A stretch of DNA of 64,000 nucleotides, from NCBI GenBank assembly GCA_003612585.1, contig RAZH01000012.1, positions 1-64,000 on the forward strand, given 5' to 3'. Below are positions 33,047 to 41,910 of the stretch, piece by piece. The notes below the pieces were generated by a model. The model saw nothing but the letters and a program-made list of their open reading frames with translations, ran no database searches and was not told where the DNA came from. The translations under genes were made by a program, and so were the position numbers. This DNA is from a bacterium 1XD42-54. GTDB taxonomy: Bacteria > Bacillota > Clostridia > Lachnospirales > Lachnospiraceae. Position 1 is the first letter of the stretch. Each line of letters opens with the position of its first letter.

Positions 33047-33348
33047 GAAATTAACTCCTTGTTTTGGTTAGTCTGAAGCAGGATACAAATCGTAAATTTA
33101 ATCTTCATTCAAACGCATTTATAATAGGGAAAGATTGTGATAGAAATATGTTAAGATTACGTAAAAATGAATATTATTACAGAAATATTACTGCTGATTA
33201 TTGGCAGATGAATGCAAAACAGAATCATGTGTAAAATGACTTTTTTGTTATAAAAATCAGAAAAATATAAAAAATATATATTATTAAGAGAAAATATAAA
33301 ATAAAAATACATATATAAAAAATAATAAAGAAAAATACAAATTAAATA
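33047..33348. other. AT-rich divergent region upstream of cysD and the ncRNA promoter
   Basis: About 300 bp without a gene. The stretch 33240-33348 is almost pure A/T with A-tracts and could act as an UP element for the promoter at 33349. On the minus strand a TATAAA-like -10 lies near 33120-33130, without a good -35. Confidence 0.5.
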
Positions 33349-33377
33349 TTGACAAATAAAAGGAGATTTGTTAAGAT
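33349..33377 (+). promoter_or_regulatory. Consensus promoter of the noncoding RNA candidate
   Basis: TTGACA (33349-33354), exactly 17 bases, then TAAGAT (33372-33377), preceded by A/T tracts. The start point would be near 33384, immediately before a 7-bp hairpin. Confidence 0.75.
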
Positions 33378-33383
33378 ACAGAC

Positions 33384-34041
33384 ATCAACAAAACATTTGT
33401 TGTTCCTATAGAAGAGTACCTATAGACAATGAAGGTTTCGGAAGGATTGGAGGTCGATACCAGTGGATAGCGTTTCGCATCATTTAGCTGATACATGTGG
33501 CAGGATAAATGTTTCCTGTGAAAAAGACCTCTGTCAGAAGTGATTCAAGAGTATCGAAAAAGAAACGGTAATTGGAGAGAGAAGGAATCCGTTGACAGAG
33601 TACATTTATCCAGGTAGTGTAGAAAAACGAACGCGCAGGTTCAATTGTTTTTAGAACAGACAGATCAGGAAAGAAGCGGCTGGAGACGAGTGAAAGAGCA
33701 AAGAAAAGAACATCGAAAGGAAAGATGTAAAAGCGGTAAGAGTTCCAGCGCCTGACAGAGAAAAGCCACATGGTTTATAAAAGGACAATATGTGTAAAGA
33801 AACAGACGATACTTTTATAAATAAAACAGGAAAGATACCTCTCCAATTGAGCAGATAAAGAGAAAGACAAGTAAAACTGAATAAAAAGGCACAAAAATAA
33901 CACGTAACTGAAACACAGATTAAAAAACACAAATTAAAAAATACAAATTAAAATCTGAAACAGAATAAAAACAAAAAACTCTGAACTAAAAATTAAATCA
34001 AAAAAGCAGGAGATGCTGTAAATGCAGTACCTCCTGTTTTT
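33384..34041 (+). ncRNA. Candidate large structured noncoding RNA, about 660 nt
   Basis: A consensus promoter and a strong terminator bracket about 660 bases with no credible reading frame and a purine-rich plus strand. The 5' end has hairpins CAACAAA/TTTGTTG (33386-33402) and CTATAG/CTATAG (33406-33425). A long-range stem CATGTGGC (33494-33501) with GCCACATG (33765-33772) encloses CTCTGTCAG (33529-33537) with CTGACAGAG (33752-33760). Inside that are GATTC/GAATC and GCTGGA/TCCAGC. A 10-bp hairpin TTTATAAAAG/CTTTTATAAA (33774-33821) abuts the outer stem. AATTGGAGAG (33560-33569) can pair with CTCTCCAATT (33839-33848), crossing the stems as a pseudoknot. An A-rich tail follows. Size and style recall the ROOL or GOLLD classes, but I could not test this. 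Confidence 0.65.
34007..34041 (+). terminator. Terminator of the noncoding RNA candidate
   Basis: CAGGAG (34007-34012) pairs with CTCCTG (34031-34036), with a further GCTG/CAG pairing inside, then TTTTTG. A-residues precede the left arm. Confidence 0.85.
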
Positions 34042-34080
34042 GCGTGAAGACGGAAGGAAAATTCTACAAATTTGATGTCG

Positions 34081-34109
34081 TTGACTGAAATCTGTTTTTG
34101 AAGTAAGAT
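34081..34109 (+). promoter_or_regulatory. Promoter of the first CDP-glycerol transferase gene
   Basis: TTGACT (34081-34086), 17 bases, TAAGAT (34104-34109). The -10 is identical to the one before the noncoding RNA. It lies 36 bases before the chosen start codon. Confidence 0.7.
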
Positions 34110-34144
34110 AGGTGTAATTAATTACGTTTATGGAGAATATTACG

Positions 34145-35692
34145 ATGTATGAAGAAAAGATAAAAGTATTTTTAGAGAGCTTTGGTGAGCGTTTGACAGA
34201 GAACCATGCACAGCGGATCGATAAATTCCGGAATGACCTCTGTCAAGAATATTCATTTGATGATACGCAGGTTTTGGATACAATGGAGTTGTTGTATCTT
34301 GTTTTTCATGAGGAGAATACACCAGAAAATGCAGAGGTGGCAGTGAATCTGTTGGATCGGATTCTGAAGATGGAAAGCAAGGACGGAAAAGAGGAGAATC
34401 TTCGGCTTGACCGTTTCTGTATTAAGCATTTGCTTCCGGTTATTTATGATTTAGGAGCATATCAACCGGTTACGAATATGCTTCTGTTTATGCAGCCACG
34501 ACGGGGGTTAAATGAAAGTTTCCGTTATCTTTATAAGAAATTGAAAAAGGAGTATACGTATCCACTTGCACTGTATGAGCTTCATCGGGGAGAGGTTACT
34601 AGGCTGGAGTATTATATGAATGCAGCGTGGTTTATTCGTGATATGGCGACAGCCCGGGCTGTGTTTGTGCATGAATCAAACAACCTTATGGGGTATCTGG
34701 AGATTCGGCCGGAGACAAAAATCGTCCAGCTTTGGCACGGCTGCGGAGTTTTTAAACACATTGGTTTGAGCACAATTGGGAAAAAGGGTTTCAAAAGCAT
34801 GGCTCGCTATGAAGAATTTCCAGAATATAACAAATATTCTGTTGTTACAATTGCCAGTCCGGAACTGCCCTGGGTTTTTGAAGAGTTTATGGGTATTTCA
34901 AAAGACAGCGGGGTGATTCAGCCGATTGGCGTTTGTCGTACGGATGAAATATTTGACAATGGTTATGTAGAGAAGTGTTATCAGAAGCTTTATAAAGCGA
35001 TTCCTGCGGCTCAAGATAAAAAGATTATTTTATATGCGCCGACGTATCGGGGCGTTGATCCTCACCGGGTTTCTCCGGATGCCCTGGATATTGCGGCATT
35101 TGCAAAGGAGTTGGGCGACGATTATATTCTTATCATAAAGCATCATCAGACAGTACAAAATGTGTCTGAGATTCCGGAACCCTACAGGGATACATTTGCT
35201 TATGATATGACACGTGGCAGAGGTATGAATATCAATGAACTTATGACAATTGCGGATATTTGCATTACAGATTATTCTTCTGTAGCGTTTGAATTTTCCG
35301 TATTTGAACGGCCGCTTCTGTTTTTTGTATATGATTTAGATGAGTATATTGATAATCGTGGACTTTATTATGATTTTAATGAAATAACGCCGGGACCGCT
35401 CTGCCGTACGAATGAGGAGATGATTCGTTACATTAAGGATCTAAAGCAGGGATTTGATAAAACGGTAATTACAAATTTTAAAAATCGTTTCATGTGCAGT
35501 TGTGATGGACATGCATGCGAGCGGCTGCTTGAATTACTCGGACTTGTAGATAAAAAACCTTTGAAACCTAAGGGGAAGGAAAGCGCTGATCAGAAAAATT
35601 CTATTCTGGCACGATGTAAACGCTATTGTCGGTATATGATAAACTACTGTAAACGGATTTTACGGGTAGTGCGCAGATGGGTAAAACGTTAA
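34145..35692 (+). CDS. CDP-glycerol glycerophosphotransferase family protein
   Basis: The 515-residue protein has a helical N-terminus of about 150 residues and then the TagB/TagF-type GT-B transferase fold. Its motifs are VQLWHGCGVFKHIG, the IILYAPTYRG stretch, IIKHHQ and ITDYSSVAFEF. Such enzymes add glycerol phosphate (or a related polyol phosphate) from the CDP form to a lipid-linked teichoic acid chain, on the inner membrane face. No membrane helix is seen; a basic C-terminus may attach it. ATG 34145 has GGAG 9 bases upstream; ATG 34130 is an alternative. It leads an operon with tagD and a second transferase. Confidence 0.88.
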   Translation: MYEEKIKVFLESFGERLTENHAQRIDKFRNDLCQEYSFDDTQVLDTMELLYLVFHEENTPENAEVAVNLLDRILKMESKDGKEENLRLDRFCIKHLLPVIYDLGAYQPVTNMLLFMQPRRGLNESFRYLYKKLKKEYTYPLALYELHRGEVTRLEYYMNAAWFIRDMATARAVFVHESNNLMGYLEIRPETKIVQLWHGCGVFKHIGLSTIGKKGFKSMARYEEFPEYNKYSVVTIASPELPWVFEEFMGISKDSGVIQPIGVCRTDEIFDNGYVEKCYQKLYKAIPAAQDKKIILYAPTYRGVDPHRVSPDALDIAAFAKELGDDYILIIKHHQTVQNVSEIPEPYRDTFAYDMTRGRGMNINELMTIADICITDYSSVAFEFSVFERPLLFFVYDLDEYIDNRGLYYDFNEITPGPLCRTNEEMIRYIKDLKQGFDKTVITNFKNRFMCSCDGHACERLLELLGLVDKKPLKPKGKESADQKNSILARCKRYCRYMINYCKRILRVVRRWVKR

Positions 35693-35719
35693 AATCTGTT
35701 TGAAATAAGGAGATGGAAA

Positions 35720-36139
35720 ATGAAAAAGGTGATAACGTATGGAACGTTTGACTTGCTTCACTATGGGCATATTAATTTGCTGCGGCGTGCAAAGGAACTG
35801 GGAGATTACCTGATCGTAGCTTTGTCGACGGATGAATTTAACTGGAACAGCAAATCCAAAAAATGTTATTTCAGCTATGAAAAGCGCAAACAGCTTCTGG
35901 AAGCAATCCGATATGTGGATCTGGTGATTCCGGAGGAGTCCTGGGAACAGAAATTATCCGATGTGAAGGAATTTCGTGTGGATACTTTTGTGATGGGGGA
36001 TGACTGGGAGGGAAAATTCGACTTTTTGAAGGAACACTGCGAAGTGATATACCTGTCGCGAACGCCGGATATTTCCACGACCCAGATTAAAACAAATCTG
36101 AGCGCGAAGAAAGAGAAAGGTTTGAACTGCAATGAATAG
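35720..36139 (+). CDS. tagD: Glycerol-3-phosphate cytidylyltransferase
   Basis: The 139-residue nucleotidyltransferase makes CDP-glycerol from CTP and sn-glycerol 3-phosphate. [19 protein letters not shown] holds the HxGH motif, [11 protein letters not shown] is in the middle, and [11 protein letters not shown] is the C-terminal signature. Length fits the family. AAGGAGATGG precedes the ATG. Its product is the donor for the flanking glycerophosphotransferases, and its stop overlaps the next start by 8 bases, indicating coupling. Confidence 0.97.
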
Positions 36140-38753
36140 TTACGACATTACAGTATTATATGCATATCATGCAGAGAAGGAGCGACCTGTACAGGATTTT
36201 CCTCGTCAGACACTGCCAGCAGAGAAAATACAGATAATTCCGGTATGGGAACCTGATATTTACAGGCCGCATAAGAATTGTCTGGATAAGGTTTCTTTGG
36301 CAGAGGGGACTTTTACAATTCTCTTAGATGAGGGAGATTCCTTTTCTGAAAGATTTCTGGAGCGAATGTTGCAGGCAGCTTTGCATCCGGAAATGGCGTT
36401 TGCAATGCCTGCGTTGCAGAGCCAGAAGCCTCTGCGCAGAGGCGAGTATTTTCTGCTCCGGGACGTAGAAGATCTGGAAGTGCATATTCAAGAGGAACCG
36501 GCGGTATTTCCGGCAAATCTTTATGGACTGCTGATTCGTACATCGCTTCTGAAAGAGGCTCTTTTAAGTACAGCCTTTCCGTGTGAGGCGGAGAAGCAGG
36601 CTTTGCTTTATATTTTGGGAAGGATTCCCAGGTTCCGTTATCTGGGAACGGAGATTCTTTCTTATGCCACGTCACTGGAATGCGATCATGAGTATGATAT
36701 CAGATGTCATACACTGGAATGGTATTATGAGCCATTTCAGAAATTCCTTCTGCCGTATCTGGAACAGAATGGCACAACCAAGGATACAGATTTATTGACG
36801 CAGCTGTATGTGATATATATGATTAAAACGCGTATTGGGGCGAATGAAGATAATCGGAACAAGCATGTTATTTCGAGAGAAGAGGCAGAGAATTACTGCC
36901 AGCTGTTTTCAAAGGCGTTACAGTATGTGTCAATGTCCACGTTGCTGTGTATCCAGAAAGTTTCACACCCGGCCAGACTTCACACACGTCGTCTGCTGCT
37001 GTTTTTGCGGTTAAAAAAACAGGATTTTTCTTATTATCCGAAAATTCGGTGCACTAAAGAGCAGATGCAGCTGATCAGTGATGGAGAGGTATTTTGCGAG
37101 CTGGAGCAGATCCCGTTGCGGATTATTAAGATTGATTATATAGACGAAAAACTGGAAATAGACGGAACGTATAACGACTTTTTTTCGCAGCAGGATGCAG
37201 AGGTTTTTGCCAGATTCGGGAAGCGGGAGTATCCTCTGGTTTATAATGGCAGATATGCGCGGACAAAATGTTTCGGCGTGACTTACGCGCGCATGAAAAC
37301 GTTTCACGTTTCAATTCCCGTGGAACCGTCCAAAGAGGAGCGGATTTTAAATTTTATATTTAAGGTACAGGGAAATGAGTACATAATGGACTATTCATTT
37401 CCGGCACATACGAGCCGTTTTGCAAAAGATTTTGGGTATATATACTGGCGTATCGGGACGTATCTTTCCTTCTGGAGCAGAAAAGGGATTCATGTGGTGC
37501 AGTCCAGTAAATGGAAAATCCTGAAAAAGGAGGTTGCACTATGGCTTCAGATGTGGAAAAAGAAGGATGGTTTTTATCGGGAGCAGCTTCCGCTTAAGAT
37601 TTTGAATTTCCTTTTGCAGCCGTATTTTACACGGCAGAAGATCTGGCTGTTTATGGACAAGATCTATAAAGGAGGAGATTCCTCTGAGTACATGTACCGT
37701 TATGCAATCAGGCAGAAGGACGGCATTAAAAAATATTATCTGCTGGACAAAACTTCAGCGGACTACGCGCGAATGAAAGCAGAGGGCTTCCAGCCGCTTG
37801 TACGCAACAGTCTGAAACACCGGCTCGTATTTTTGAATGCGGATATGGTGATTGCTTCTAATTCTACTGTATTTTCGTTTAACGGTTATACGTTTGCGCG
37901 CAGCCTTCCGATTCGCGGAAATGTTCATTTTGATGTGGCATGTGTTCAGCACGGAATGTCCGTGCAGAAAATTGCGATCGCGCAGCAGAGGCTGCGGGAC
38001 AACACGAATCTTTATTTTTGTGCTTCAAAATATGAGATTCAGAATCTTTCCAAGCCGGAATATGATTATATGGGATATGATGCGCTGAAGCTGACGGGAG
38101 TTCCGAGATATGATGGTCTGAAAAACCGTGCGCAGAAAATTCTGGTCATTTCGCCTACCTGGCGCATGCAGTCTGCATTGCCGCCGACTGGCGGGACGGA
38201 AAGCGTTTCCAGAACTTACAATCCCAATTTTAAAGAGACGAGTTATTATAAGGTGTACAACAGTCTGATTAATGATCCGCGTCTGCTCGGGGAGGCACGC
38301 AAATATGGATATCGGATTCAGTATGTTCTGCACCCGATTGTAAGTCCGCAGAAGGATGATTTTGTACAAAATGACCTGGTTGAGATTATTCCGTCGATCG
38401 GAGAAATGAGCTATGAGAAAATATTCTGTGAGGGAGCCTTGATGGTGACAGATTTTTCAGGGGTTCAGTTTGATTTTGCCTATATGAGAAAGCCTGTGAT
38501 TTATCTGCATCATCATGATATTCCGCAGCATTATGAGGAAGGCGCATTTTTCTATGACACAATGGGATTTGGAGAGATTTGCCATACGAATGACGAATTG
38601 ATTGATGTTTTGTGCAGATATATGAAAAATGACTGCCAGATGCCGGATCTTTATCGGAGCCGGGCAGATGATTTTTTTGCGTTTTCCGATCATCACAACT
38701 GCGAACGGATTTATCCGGTTATGCTGGAACATGAAAAGAAACGTACTAGGTAG
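36132..38753 (+). CDS. Large CDP-glycerol glycerophosphotransferase with N-terminal GT-A-like region
   Basis: The 873-residue protein has an N-terminal region (1-~270) that looks like a degenerate GT2 fold ([29 protein letters not shown] in the DxD position). A beta-rich middle (~320-420) follows, and then the CDP-glycerol transferase domain (~430-870). The last part has [53 protein letters not shown] and a [14 protein letters not shown] end. The middle and C-terminal parts closely parallel the 583-residue protein at 48611. It is translationally coupled to tagD. Whether the N-terminal region is active is unclear. Confidence 0.85.
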
Positions 38754-39039: not shown

Positions 39040-41910
39040 TTGGATAAGTATGAGTACAATCTCAAGCTGGAGGAAATAGACAAACTGGTAGATCAGGAAG
39101 ATTATCAGGAAGCCGCGAATCTGGCAGATACGATAGACTGGCGGAGAGTTCGAAATATCAGAACACTTTGCCTGATCAGTGAGATCTATGAGGCAGCGGG
39201 AAGGCTGGAGGAGAGCAAGACGCTGCTGCTTCGCGCCTACCGCAGATCACCGGTGGGCCGGACGGTTCTGTACCGTCTGGTAGAGGTGACGACCGCGCTG
39301 GGACAATTTGATGAGGCGCTGGAGTATTATACGGAGTATGTGCAGGCAGCGCCGCATGACAACAACCGATATATTTTAAAATACAAAATTTACAAAGGCA
39401 GAGGGAGCCAGACACAGGAGCTGATTGCGATTCTGGAGGAATATCTGGGACAGGAGTACACGGAGCGCTGGGCGTATGAGCTGGCCACGTTGTATCAGCA
39501 GTCCGGACAGATGCAGAAGTGTCTGGCAGCCTGTGATGATCTGGTGCTTTGGTTTCACAGCGGCAAATATGTGGCGAAGGCACTGGAACTGAAAAAAAGG
39601 TACGCAGCGCTGACACCAAAGCAGAAGCAGATTTATGACGAATGTCTGCAAAAGAAAATGGCCGATCCTGTGGAGGAAACAGAGGAGAAGGAAACCGTTG
39701 TACAGAATGTCGAGCCGGATACCGGAGCAGCCGGAGGGGAGTTTATGGCTGAAAGTATCATGGCGCAGACCGAGCGGGAAATTGCCAATCAGGTGGCGGC
39801 ACATAAGGCAGAAAAGGACAAGAAAGAAGAACAGCTCGCCGCTGAGGAAGAACCAGGCGAACAGCTGGCATCCACGCGTATTATGCCGGGCAAAACAGAT
39901 ACACAGGTATGGCGGGGTGTAAAGCCTGGGCCGGGCAGTCTGCAGACGAAGCAGCCGGAGGAAAAATCCGTGCAGGAACAGACGGTTCAGCCTCAGGAGG
40001 AAGAGGAAGATATACCTCTGGAGCCGGGAGATTTGCAGGTGGAACTTGCAAAGAGCATGAGGAAAATCCTCTCAGGTGTCGTAAAAAATGTAGAACAGCC
40101 TGAGGATGATATTCCTGCGTCTGTGGATGCGAGAGTACAGAGTGTTCCTCCGCTTCAAATACCGGAGGCGCCGGAGCAGTCGGCAGGACAGCTCTCTATT
40201 GACGATGTGCTTCTTTCTATGAGCGATAAAGGAAAAAGAATAACGGACGCCGTACTGGGCGAAATGGACAGTGAGGAGCCGGAGGCACAGAAAGACAGTC
40301 ATAGGACAGACGACGGTCAGGAAAACAGAGCGTCCTATGAAATGGATGCGAGATCTGATGCAGACGACATAAGTGGAGGCCAGGAAAACTCTGAGGCGGA
40401 TGAAGCGAAGGAAAGCCAGGAAAAATCTGTGATGGGTGGAGCAGAGGGAAATCAAGTAGTCACCTTGGCAGACGAGACACCCGTAAGGCGGGAGAGATTG
40501 GTGAAGAAATCCCGGGTAAAGAGCAGATCAGAGGACAAAGAGCGTGCTGACAGTCAGGAAGAACCGGCGATAAAAGAAAAGTCAGAAAAGATGTCAGAAG
40601 AAAAATATGAAAGAATCGCCAGAGAAATCTCAGAGGATGATTCAGAAAGAAGTACAGATAGCAGTGCAGAAAGCAGAAACAAAAAAGCCGGGGCACTGAG
40701 ATTTCCAGATACGGCAAAAACCATGGTGGATGCTGCTGCGGATGAACTGACCGATATTCAGCGCGAAGCGCTTCAGTATACGAACCACCCGGAAAAGCTG
40801 CTCAGAAACGCAAGATCTCTTCCTACATATATGGAAGAAGATGACGAGCTTGGAAAGACGCGCAGGATTGCAAGCCGTGAGGAGCTGATAGAGGCCGCAA
40901 AGAAGGAGATTCTTCAGGAGAAGACGATTCGGATTCCGACCGATCAGATTGCACAAAAGCTCGAAGAGCCGGCAGGAAAAACACGAACAGAAGAGCAGGG
41001 CGAAAACCGTTCAGCTGAACAGGCCTATTCCGAAGCCGATGAACGTATCTTTGATGAAATGGAATATTCAGAAGATCGTTCCGAGGAGCTGCCATATGCA
41101 GAAAATGCAGAAGACTATTATGATGATGAAGCAGAACAGGCATATGAAGAGGAAGAATATCTGATGATTCCGCAGCATCTCAGAGGCCTTTTCAGCGGTT
41201 TCACAGAGGTGGAAGGTCTGGAGGAGCAGATTGCCAATGCAATCATCCAGGCAGAAGCTAAAGGAGATGACCGTACTTCACGCAGTGGCAATATTCTGGT
41301 TTTTGGTGCGCATGGTTCCGGAAAGACAACTCTGGCTATGAATATTGCAAAAGCGATTGCTCACGACAAGGGCAACCAGACGATGAAGATTGCAAAGATT
41401 TACGCGGCAGATTTGAACCGTAAGGATATCGCGGCAACAGTTGCGAAAATCGCCGGCGGTACGCTGATCGTGGAGGAAGCAGGAGATCTGGAGCCGGGCA
41501 CCGTGGAGCAGCTTACAACAGCCATGGAGTTCCGGACTGACGGTCTGGTGGTGATTCTGGAGGATGAACAGCAGTATATTCATGAACTTTTGATGCGTCA
41601 TCCGCGTTTTACGATGAAATTTACTGCTCAGATCTATATTCCGGAATATACGGTAGAGGAACTGGCAGGGTTTGGACAGATCTATGCGAATGCGCAGGAT
41701 TATATGATCGGTGAGGAGGCGCAGGAGGTTCTTTGCCAGAAGCTTGTGGAAGCTATGGAAGGAGAAAATCCAGTAACGCTTGCAGATGTGATTGATCTGA
41801 CCGGAAAAGCGATTGCGCGTTCGAATAAGTTTTTCCGTAAATTGTCAATGGGAAAGAAGCGGTACGATGAGAATGATTATATTGTGCTGTTCCCGAAGGA
41901 TTTTAAATAA
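39040..41910 (+). CDS. TPR protein with long disordered linker and C-terminal AAA-type ATPase
   Basis: The 956-residue protein opens with TPR-like helices (~1-190; LEESKTLLLRAYRRSP, FDEALEYYTEYVQA). It continues with an acidic, Glu/Gln-rich disordered stretch (~200-720) and ends in a P-loop ATPase (~730-956). The ATPase has Walker A GAHGSGKTT (Lys762) and Walker B TLIVEEAGDLE. No membrane segment is seen. The start is a TTG preceded by ACGGGGTG. It lies between teichoic-acid-type genes and a LUD gene under its own promoter. I recall similar proteins in Lachnospiraceae without known function; the build suggests a scaffold or assembly motor. Confidence 0.75.
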   Translation: MDKYEYNLKLEEIDKLVDQEDYQEAANLADTIDWRRVRNIRTLCLISEIYEAAGRLEESKTLLLRAYRRSPVGRTVLYRLVEVTTALGQFDEALEYYTEYVQAAPHDNNRYILKYKIYKGRGSQTQELIAILEEYLGQEYTERWAYELATLYQQSGQMQKCLAACDDLVLWFHSGKYVAKALELKKRYAALTPKQKQIYDECLQKKMADPVEETEEKETVVQNVEPDTGAAGGEFMAESIMAQTEREIANQVAAHKAEKDKKEEQLAAEEEPGEQLASTRIMPGKTDTQVWRGVKPGPGSLQTKQPEEKSVQEQTVQPQEEEEDIPLEPGDLQVELAKSMRKILSGVVKNVEQPEDDIPASVDARVQSVPPLQIPEAPEQSAGQLSIDDVLLSMSDKGKRITDAVLGEMDSEEPEAQKDSHRTDDGQENRASYEMDARSDADDISGGQENSEADEAKESQEKSVMGGAEGNQVVTLADETPVRRERLVKKSRVKSRSEDKERADSQEEPAIKEKSEKMSEEKYERIAREISEDDSERSTDSSAESRNKKAGALRFPDTAKTMVDAAADELTDIQREALQYTNHPEKLLRNARSLPTYMEEDDELGKTRRIASREELIEAAKKEILQEKTIRIPTDQIAQKLEEPAGKTRTEEQGENRSAEQAYSEADERIFDEMEYSEDRSEELPYAENAEDYYDDEAEQAYEEEEYLMIPQHLRGLFSGFTEVEGLEEQIANAIIQAEAKGDDRTSRSGNILVFGAHGSGKTTLAMNIAKAIAHDKGNQTMKIAKIYAADLNRKDIAATVAKIAGGTLIVEEAGDLEPGTVEQLTTAMEFRTDGLVVILEDEQQYIHELLMRHPRFTMKFTAQIYIPEYTVEELAGFGQIYANAQDYMIGEEAQEVLCQKLVEAMEGENPVTLADVIDLTGKAIARSNKFFRKLSMGKKRYDENDYIVLFPKDFK

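Follow-up and report, generated by a model that had tools for sequence, protein, structure and literature searches.

A candidate class of large structured RNA in Lachnospiraceae whose covarying helices overlap a short open reading frame

What is made from a locus of about 660 nt that lies between a promoter and a terminator and seems to encode no protein? We addressed this question at positions 33349–34041 of a 64,000-nucleotide stretch of DNA (hereafter, the window) from a Lachnospiraceae bacterium whose genus looks like Parablautia; the parts of the RNA and the TPR-AAA+ gene given below lie on the + strand. The original prediction was a large structured noncoding RNA, either a member of a class such as ROOL or GOLLD or a new class. 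Few bacterial RNAs of such size and complexity have been described, and the class examined here was detected in 66/280 sampled Lachnospiraceae genera. We examined whether the transcription unit, the fold and the gene context recur in relatives, and whether the locus is free of translated sequence.

Predicted transcription unit and distribution of the RNA

The predicted promoter TTGACA-N17-TAAGAT was present at 33349–33377, with a TG ahead of the −10 element, and was also returned by the promoter scan. The strong terminator was likewise borne out at 34006–34041 as an intrinsic terminator with a stem and a T run, where the minimum-energy fold ended in a hairpin. The promoter scan gave 10 promoter-like sites in 2.5 kb compared with 7.2 in shuffles, and the terminator was absent from the output of the terminator scan, which was limited to loops of 3–8. 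As both signals are weak by themselves, the weight rests on their recurrence in relatives. An exact TTGACA with a fitting −10 element was found upstream of the short open reading frame (ORF) described below in 74/80 testable distant members of the RNA, compared with 3/152 control windows; a terminator was found in 57/80 distant members by a simple script that was run without a control. The distance from promoter to first terminator was 308 to 1193 nt (median 715, n = 54). That is, the promoter-to-terminator unit recurs across relatives. From these signals we infer that the locus is transcribed, probably into a stand-alone RNA of about 660 nt.

The 5'-end hairpins that had been predicted were seen in the sequence, namely CAACAA/TTGTTG at 33386–33402, in a segment aligned in 30 Parablautia loci, and CTATAG..CTATAG at 33406–33425, which was also covered by the Parablautia alignment. 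The predicted transcript (33384–34041) folded at −133.1 kcal/mol compared with −111.5 (sd 5.3) in 20 dinucleotide shuffles, giving a z of −4.1 with 0/20 shuffles as low. This result, together with a match to the RNA in 43/47 genomes of Parablautia (the genome of the window counted), agrees with the claim of pairing beyond chance. Within the genus, the first 260 nt and the region around query positions 380–466 were the best conserved, and the middle varied in length.

Next to the genus-level comparison, a pattern scan of named genomes yielded 36 stretches, 35 of which were labelled Lachnospiraceae, Clostridiales, Oscillospiraceae or Parablautia; an exact pattern match in an alphaproteobacterium (L037) was set aside as probable chance. 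With model R1, built from 30 Parablautia loci, the RNA was detected in 10 genomes belonging to eight further genera of Lachnospiraceae. Model R2, built from the R1 set and the newly found loci, matched 80/397 Lachnospiraceae genomes in 67/334 genera (E up to 0.01), and model R3 matched 73/298 genomes in 66/280 genera (E up to 0.001), a count that includes at least one genome (G207) whose match reads as chance. The R2 and R3 tallies are not independent because the models contain sequences found in the same sample. Across the class Clostridia, R2 matched 8/341 genomes, two in Lachnospiraceae and six at E 0.003–0.006, and R3 matched 17/293, three in Lachnospiraceae and 14 at E 7e-5 to 0.0096, a number above the roughly three to be expected at the E limit. 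The best R3 match outside the family (G782), the sole one read, sits inside an apparent coding gene, which we take to be that of glycyl-tRNA synthetase, and was rejected. On these sequence matches, the RNA looks confined to Lachnospiraceae, where it is patchy, with weak matches only in other Clostridia. Since about three quarters of the sampled Lachnospiraceae genomes have no detectable copy, the RNA is dispensable.

Two sets of members were used for the comparisons below. The Parablautia set consisted of 40 loci, 36 of which had a readable 3' part; L166, L170 and L171 were left out as they had no 5' anchor. The distant set consisted of 86 members, 72 from R2 and 14 of 17 later stretches; L230 (G207) and L232 (G782) were left out as chance matches, and L233 because genome G159 was already represented by another fragment.

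Local and long-range helices

Covariation was assessed with permutation tests, which ignore relatedness among the members, and the zero counts given below are not probabilities. Among the local helices, helix f joins GGATAAATGT at 33503–33512 to ACATTTATCC at 33602–33611. It showed two-sided change in 3/9 pairs of the Parablautia alignment, and its equivalent in 64 distant members was matched by 0/3000 permutations, with pairings such as TTACAGAT/ATCTGTAA and ATCAGC/GCTGAT. Helix h joins CTCTGTCAG at 33529–33537 to TTGACAGAG at 33592–33600 and showed two-sided change in 6/8 pairs of the Parablautia alignment, with one pair unpaired in 10/30 sequences of that alignment (A1). The original prediction had paired CTCTGTCAG with a distal segment at 33752–33760, but a distal partner like it was found in just 4/35 Parablautia members (L001, L002, L004 and L005), whereas a local partner with at least 8/9 positions pairing was found in 32/35. 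The supported partner of CTCTGTCAG is thus the local segment, and this local helix covaries. Helix i joins GATTC at 33542–33546 to GAATC at 33585–33589; three of its five pairs were invariant in the Parablautia alignment and one showed two-sided change. Helices f, h and i and a small hairpin together had 11 pairs with two-sided change in Parablautia compared with 4.6 in shuffled alignments (0/500), and most of the pairing was lost on a slide by one column; further pair types in these helices were not above shuffles (216/500, alignment A1).

In the 3' part, the 10-bp hairpin TTTATAAAAG/CTTTTATAAA was seen in the sequence as predicted (33774–33821). Its loop, GTGTAAAGAAAC at 33792–33803, contains a recurrent word, GUGURAAGAAA, which was found in 50/82 distant and 25/39 Parablautia members and in 0/85 shuffled controls. 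A second hairpin loop word, GACGAGAAA, was found in 41/84 distant members and 0/85 shuffles, and the flanking arms formed at least four pairs at 37/41 of these sites. Hairpin-like words of the form GTTATAGAANGAATAAC also recur in the 3' variable part (L093, L105 and L116; read, uncounted).

Two long-range complements of the original prediction were recovered. The first, helix c, pairs CATGTGGC at 33494–33501 with GCCACATG at 33765–33772 and covaries in Parablautia, where 18 distinct pairs from 36 members gave 0/2000 permutations. The second, the pseudoknot helix k, pairs AATTGGAGAG at 33570–33579 with CTCTCCAATT at 33839–33848; it covaries both in Parablautia (22 distinct cases, 0/5000, with the partner picked anew in every permutation) and in 34 distant members (0/3000). 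Two more helices covary in the distant set. Helix a pairs GAGGTC at 33450–33455 with GACCTC at 33526–33531 (54 members, 0/3000), and helix d pairs TTTCCTGT at 33512–33519 with ACAGGAAA at 33826–33833 (56 members, 0/3000); inside Parablautia, helix d was uninformative (1133/2000). In other genera, a 9-bp pairing of CAATAT codons with a 3' site (helix b) was found, for example CAATATGAG/CTCATATTG, CAATATAAC/GTTATATTG and CAATACATC/GATGTATTG. Its 36 distinct pairs were 92% paired compared with 81% when permuted (0/2000), a count that retains several mispicked 3' partners (for example L129, L142, L219 and L229). Helix b was not seen in the window, where helix c is longer. Because the strands follow one another in the order b, c, b', c', helices b and c form a pseudoknot. 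Not all pairs form at once, since 33529–33531 is common to helices a and h and 33512 is common to helices d and f.

The locus thus shows the covarying multi-helix fold with pseudoknots that characterizes large structured bacterial RNAs, and the conservation and covariation of local and long-range helices uphold this central part of the original prediction.

The embedded short ORF and a proposed order of events

The absence of a plausible protein had been part of the prediction; however, we found a Shine-Dalgarno sequence GGAGG at 33449–33453, 9 nt before a GTG start codon, and an ORF of 26 codons at 33463–33543 that ends in TGA at 33541–33543 (VDSVSHHLADTCGRINVSCEKDLCQK). GGAGG was invariant in the 30 Parablautia sequences of alignment A1 and was present, with changes, in most distant members inspected. 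The ORF was open in 30/30 Parablautia loci, with a length of 25–27 codons in all 30. A start codon was found in 85/86 distant members (ATG 40, TTG 36, GTG 7 and CTG 2). The start codon lies within a conserved near-palindrome, CC-N-NTGG (33460–33466 and relatives), which could serve RNA–RNA contacts between copies.

The distance from the start codon to the CARTRY motif (Gln-Tyr) was a multiple of three in 74/81 distant members (21 to 36 nt). The seven exceptions were L100, a regex artefact whose ORF is in frame, four mini-ORFs, and L133 and L148, which are out of frame. The distant members had 53 long ORFs, including three of only 18–21 codons, 14 short ORFs that stop just past QYxSGxA or its equivalent, and 13 mini-ORFs with only one to three codons between the start codon and the stop. 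In three members (L132, L133 and L148), no ORF reaches the QY position. Among the 67 long and short ORFs, the spacers measured 24, 27, 30, 33 or 36 nt and contained no stop; the one deviation, L225 with 21 nt, is a loose match. Beyond the QY position, the distance from GTGG to TTCC kept one phase in 42/46 measured long ORFs compared with 3/11 measured short ORFs (Fisher 4e-5, with relatedness ignored and the short ones partly related). Read in this way, the lapse of the frame rule past the stop of the short ORFs would serve as an internal control for translation.

These observations bear on whether the ORF arose by accident within a noncoding RNA that is itself conserved, its Shine-Dalgarno sequence and start codon being merely helix sequence. 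GGAGG does lie within helix a, CC-N-NTGG is nearly palindromic, and 16/85 members have no ORF through to the QY position (the 13 mini-ORFs and L132, L133 and L148). An accident does not, however, account for spacers of 24–36 nt that are all multiples of three and stop-free in the 67 long and short ORFs (L225 apart), for a start position that is C in only 2/85, or for a frame rule that lapses past the stop, and we consider it highly improbable. The start codon and frame look constrained, and the embedded ORF is probably translated. Start, frame and stop are kept as in dual-function RNAs, the exceptions being the 13 mini-ORFs and the three members that do not read through; the label 'noncoding' is probably wrong in the strict sense, since most members retain the frame of the short ORF.

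Constraint on the peptide was a different matter. In Parablautia, codons 2–6 had a crude pN/pS of 0.45 and third positions were more variable; a third-position excess was absent from the spacer codons outside Parablautia. Four peptides, one of them padded, had no match in Pfam, which is a weak test for queries so short. The peptide thus appears to be mildly constrained or not at all, drifting while start and frame are largely kept.

Peptides made under an RNA translational lock have precedents in hok mRNA and RNAIII, and here, too, the peptide may be functional, with the large RNA acting as a lock that is released by 3' processing or by a partner. Such an account would fit the ORF that is in frame in most members, the third-position variability and pN/pS of codons 2–6 in Parablautia, and the 3' segments that pair with the ORF. 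However, the N-terminal codons show no third-position excess outside Parablautia, helices b and c account for a large share of the conservation of QYxSG, the 14 short ORFs lack the C-terminus and the 13 mini-ORFs lack nearly everything, and the Pfam search was blank for three peptides and a padded one, weak as that test is. We regard a functional peptide under such a lock as rather unlikely.

The ORF and the helices physically overlap. The Shine-Dalgarno sequence and much of the ORF are helix strands (helix a for the former; b, c, d and f for the latter); therefore, translation and the full fold should exclude each other. The same strand appears to be both translated and tied into a knot. Since it is the start site and the frame that are kept, and not the peptide, the ORF is likely to serve the act of translation itself, by which the strand may be held open or the RNA protected.

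Protection alone would assign the ribosome a simpler role. Ribosome-protected 5' ends are known in Bacillus, and a ribosome parked near the 5' end by the Shine-Dalgarno sequence and start codon could shield a long-lived structural RNA from 5' exonuclease, the peptide and the length of the ORF being irrelevant. A start site that is kept while the ORF ranges from 2 to 36 codons would be expected under such shielding, as would the 13 mini-ORFs and the weak constraint on the peptide. Shielding accounts neither for a Shine-Dalgarno sequence that lies in a covarying helix nor for the pairing of much of the ORF strand; we judge it unlikely as the main explanation, though it deserves to be kept in mind.

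We tentatively propose that the locus represents a new class of large structured RNA in Lachnospiraceae, in which translation gates the fold and the RNA acts in trans. Near its 5' end, the RNA would have a site of its own for loading ribosomes, with a short ORF, and the nascent RNA would be translated first. Ribosomes would hold the ORF strand open during transcription of the 3' partner strands, which lie about 80 to 320 nt beyond the ORF strand in the window and farther in some relatives. Once translation is over, the ORF strand would pair with these partners to form helices c, d and f (in other genera also b), and helix a would tie the Shine-Dalgarno sequence to the end of the ORF, closing the ribosome site. 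The end product would be a compact RNA with pseudoknots, active in trans in a structural or regulatory role, and the act of translation would count more than the peptide. Transcription, translation, the alternation of two states, the folded RNA as the end product, the order of events and their purpose are what we infer from the conserved signals.

Within this proposal, a narrower idea is possible but doubtful: the ribosome may be a built-in folding chaperone, in that a throw-away ORF keeps the 5' strand open until the 3' partners are made and the fold then seals the site. If this is true, translation would count as a step in the maturation of an RNA that is no messenger, with the ORFs of two to four codons in some genera as its minimal form. 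The 13 mini-ORFs, together with L132, L133 and L148, could just as well reflect an ongoing loss of translation. In either case, the coordination of translation and RNA folding on one strand becomes testable by point mutations.

Neighbouring genes and relation to known RNAs

A gene for a TPR-AAA+ protein lies at 39040–41910, about 5 kb downstream of the RNA, and is a near neighbour in many relatives. It was found within 2 kb downstream on the same strand in 34/72 distant loci, some of which are cut by contig ends, and likewise in 4 of the 17 later stretches. The AAA+ part of the protein is SpoVK/CbbX-like by a sub-cutoff match. In the window, three other genes separate the RNA from this gene; the interval 34130–38753 encodes two Glyphos_transf proteins and a cytidylyltransferase, of teichoic-acid type. 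As the RNA and the TPR-AAA+ gene lie near each other in many relatives, this arrangement suggests an insertion or rearrangement in the lineage of the window. A PseudoU_synth_2 gene was located downstream of the RNA on the same strand in 8/42 listed loci (L131, L134, L141, L147, L149, L153, L107 and L223; picked by eye and confirmed with Pfam), and its product is a possible RNA-modifying partner.

The recurrent position of the TPR-AAA+ gene downstream on the same strand, also seen in the window at 39040, would be expected if the RNA controlled this gene in cis. However, the RNA has its own terminator, and a promoter-like TTGACA..TACACT, read by eye and unscored, lies ahead of the TPR gene. About 5 kb of other genes intervene in the window, and neighbours differ elsewhere, including the pseudouridine synthase genes at eight of the listed loci. 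In addition, the TPR part of the protein was found in 118/120 sampled Lachnospiraceae genomes, whereas the RNA is patchy. We also considered an overlooked copy of the RNA ahead of the TPR gene in genomes without an R3 match and rejected it, as the motif set was found in 0/20 fetched loci, with single words only. No constant downstream gene without an intervening terminator was found, as a cis-regulatory leader or an upstream ORF would have. We consider control of the TPR-AAA+ gene in cis improbable; because terminators lie between the RNA and the neighbouring genes, a role in trans is likelier.

The suggested membership in ROOL or GOLLD was not supported. At gathering level, no Rfam 15 family matched the 64-kb window, and cmscan of 33200–34200 at E up to 10 returned only SNORD37, Enterococcus-1 and mir-1889, all sub-threshold; 20 loci of relatives also had no Rfam match. 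Membership in ROOL, GOLLD or OLE was rejected for lack of a match to their Rfam covariance models. Phage and plasmid records gave no match to the RNA and viral contigs no exact motif match, and a mobile-element origin was rejected on these grounds. Nothing on this RNA was found in the portions of open-licence full text covered, including PMC11109978, PMC8040213, PMC8632094 and PMC12286853, and the same portions gave no description of such an RNA with an ORF that keeps its frame inside a pseudoknotted core. Lacking both an Rfam match and a record in this literature, the RNA qualifies as a new class of large structured RNA, a variant with an embedded ORF. The alternative suggestion of a new class is thus supported as far as Rfam 15 and this literature go.

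ROOL and GOLLD are described as RNAs of phages and prophages that often lie close to tRNA islands, and what ROOL, GOLLD and OLE do is called poorly understood (PMC12286853). The Lachnospiraceae RNA resembles ROOL, GOLLD and OLE in a complex pseudoknotted fold and a poorly understood function (PMC12286853), and in a size of about 0.6–0.9 kb. Unlike these three, it has a short ORF that keeps its frame, and unlike ROOL and GOLLD, it has no tRNA in the 64-kb window and no phage or plasmid match; recurrent chromosomal neighbours take the place of a ROOL-type setting in phages or prophages near tRNAs. The raiA motif, or ModT RNA, is a further structured noncoding RNA of Bacillota, whereas the Lachnospiraceae RNA matches no Rfam family at all.

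RNAIII, SgrS and SR1 are dual-function RNAs, that is, regulatory RNAs that also hold a small ORF. In contrast to these three, the ORF here lies inside a covarying core and the peptide is weakly conserved. In hok mRNA and icaR mRNA, the translation region at the 5' end pairs with 3' sequences, which locks a ribosome site. Unlike hok and icaR mRNA, the Lachnospiraceae RNA does not encode a long protein, its peptide matches no known family, and several covarying helices lock its ORF.
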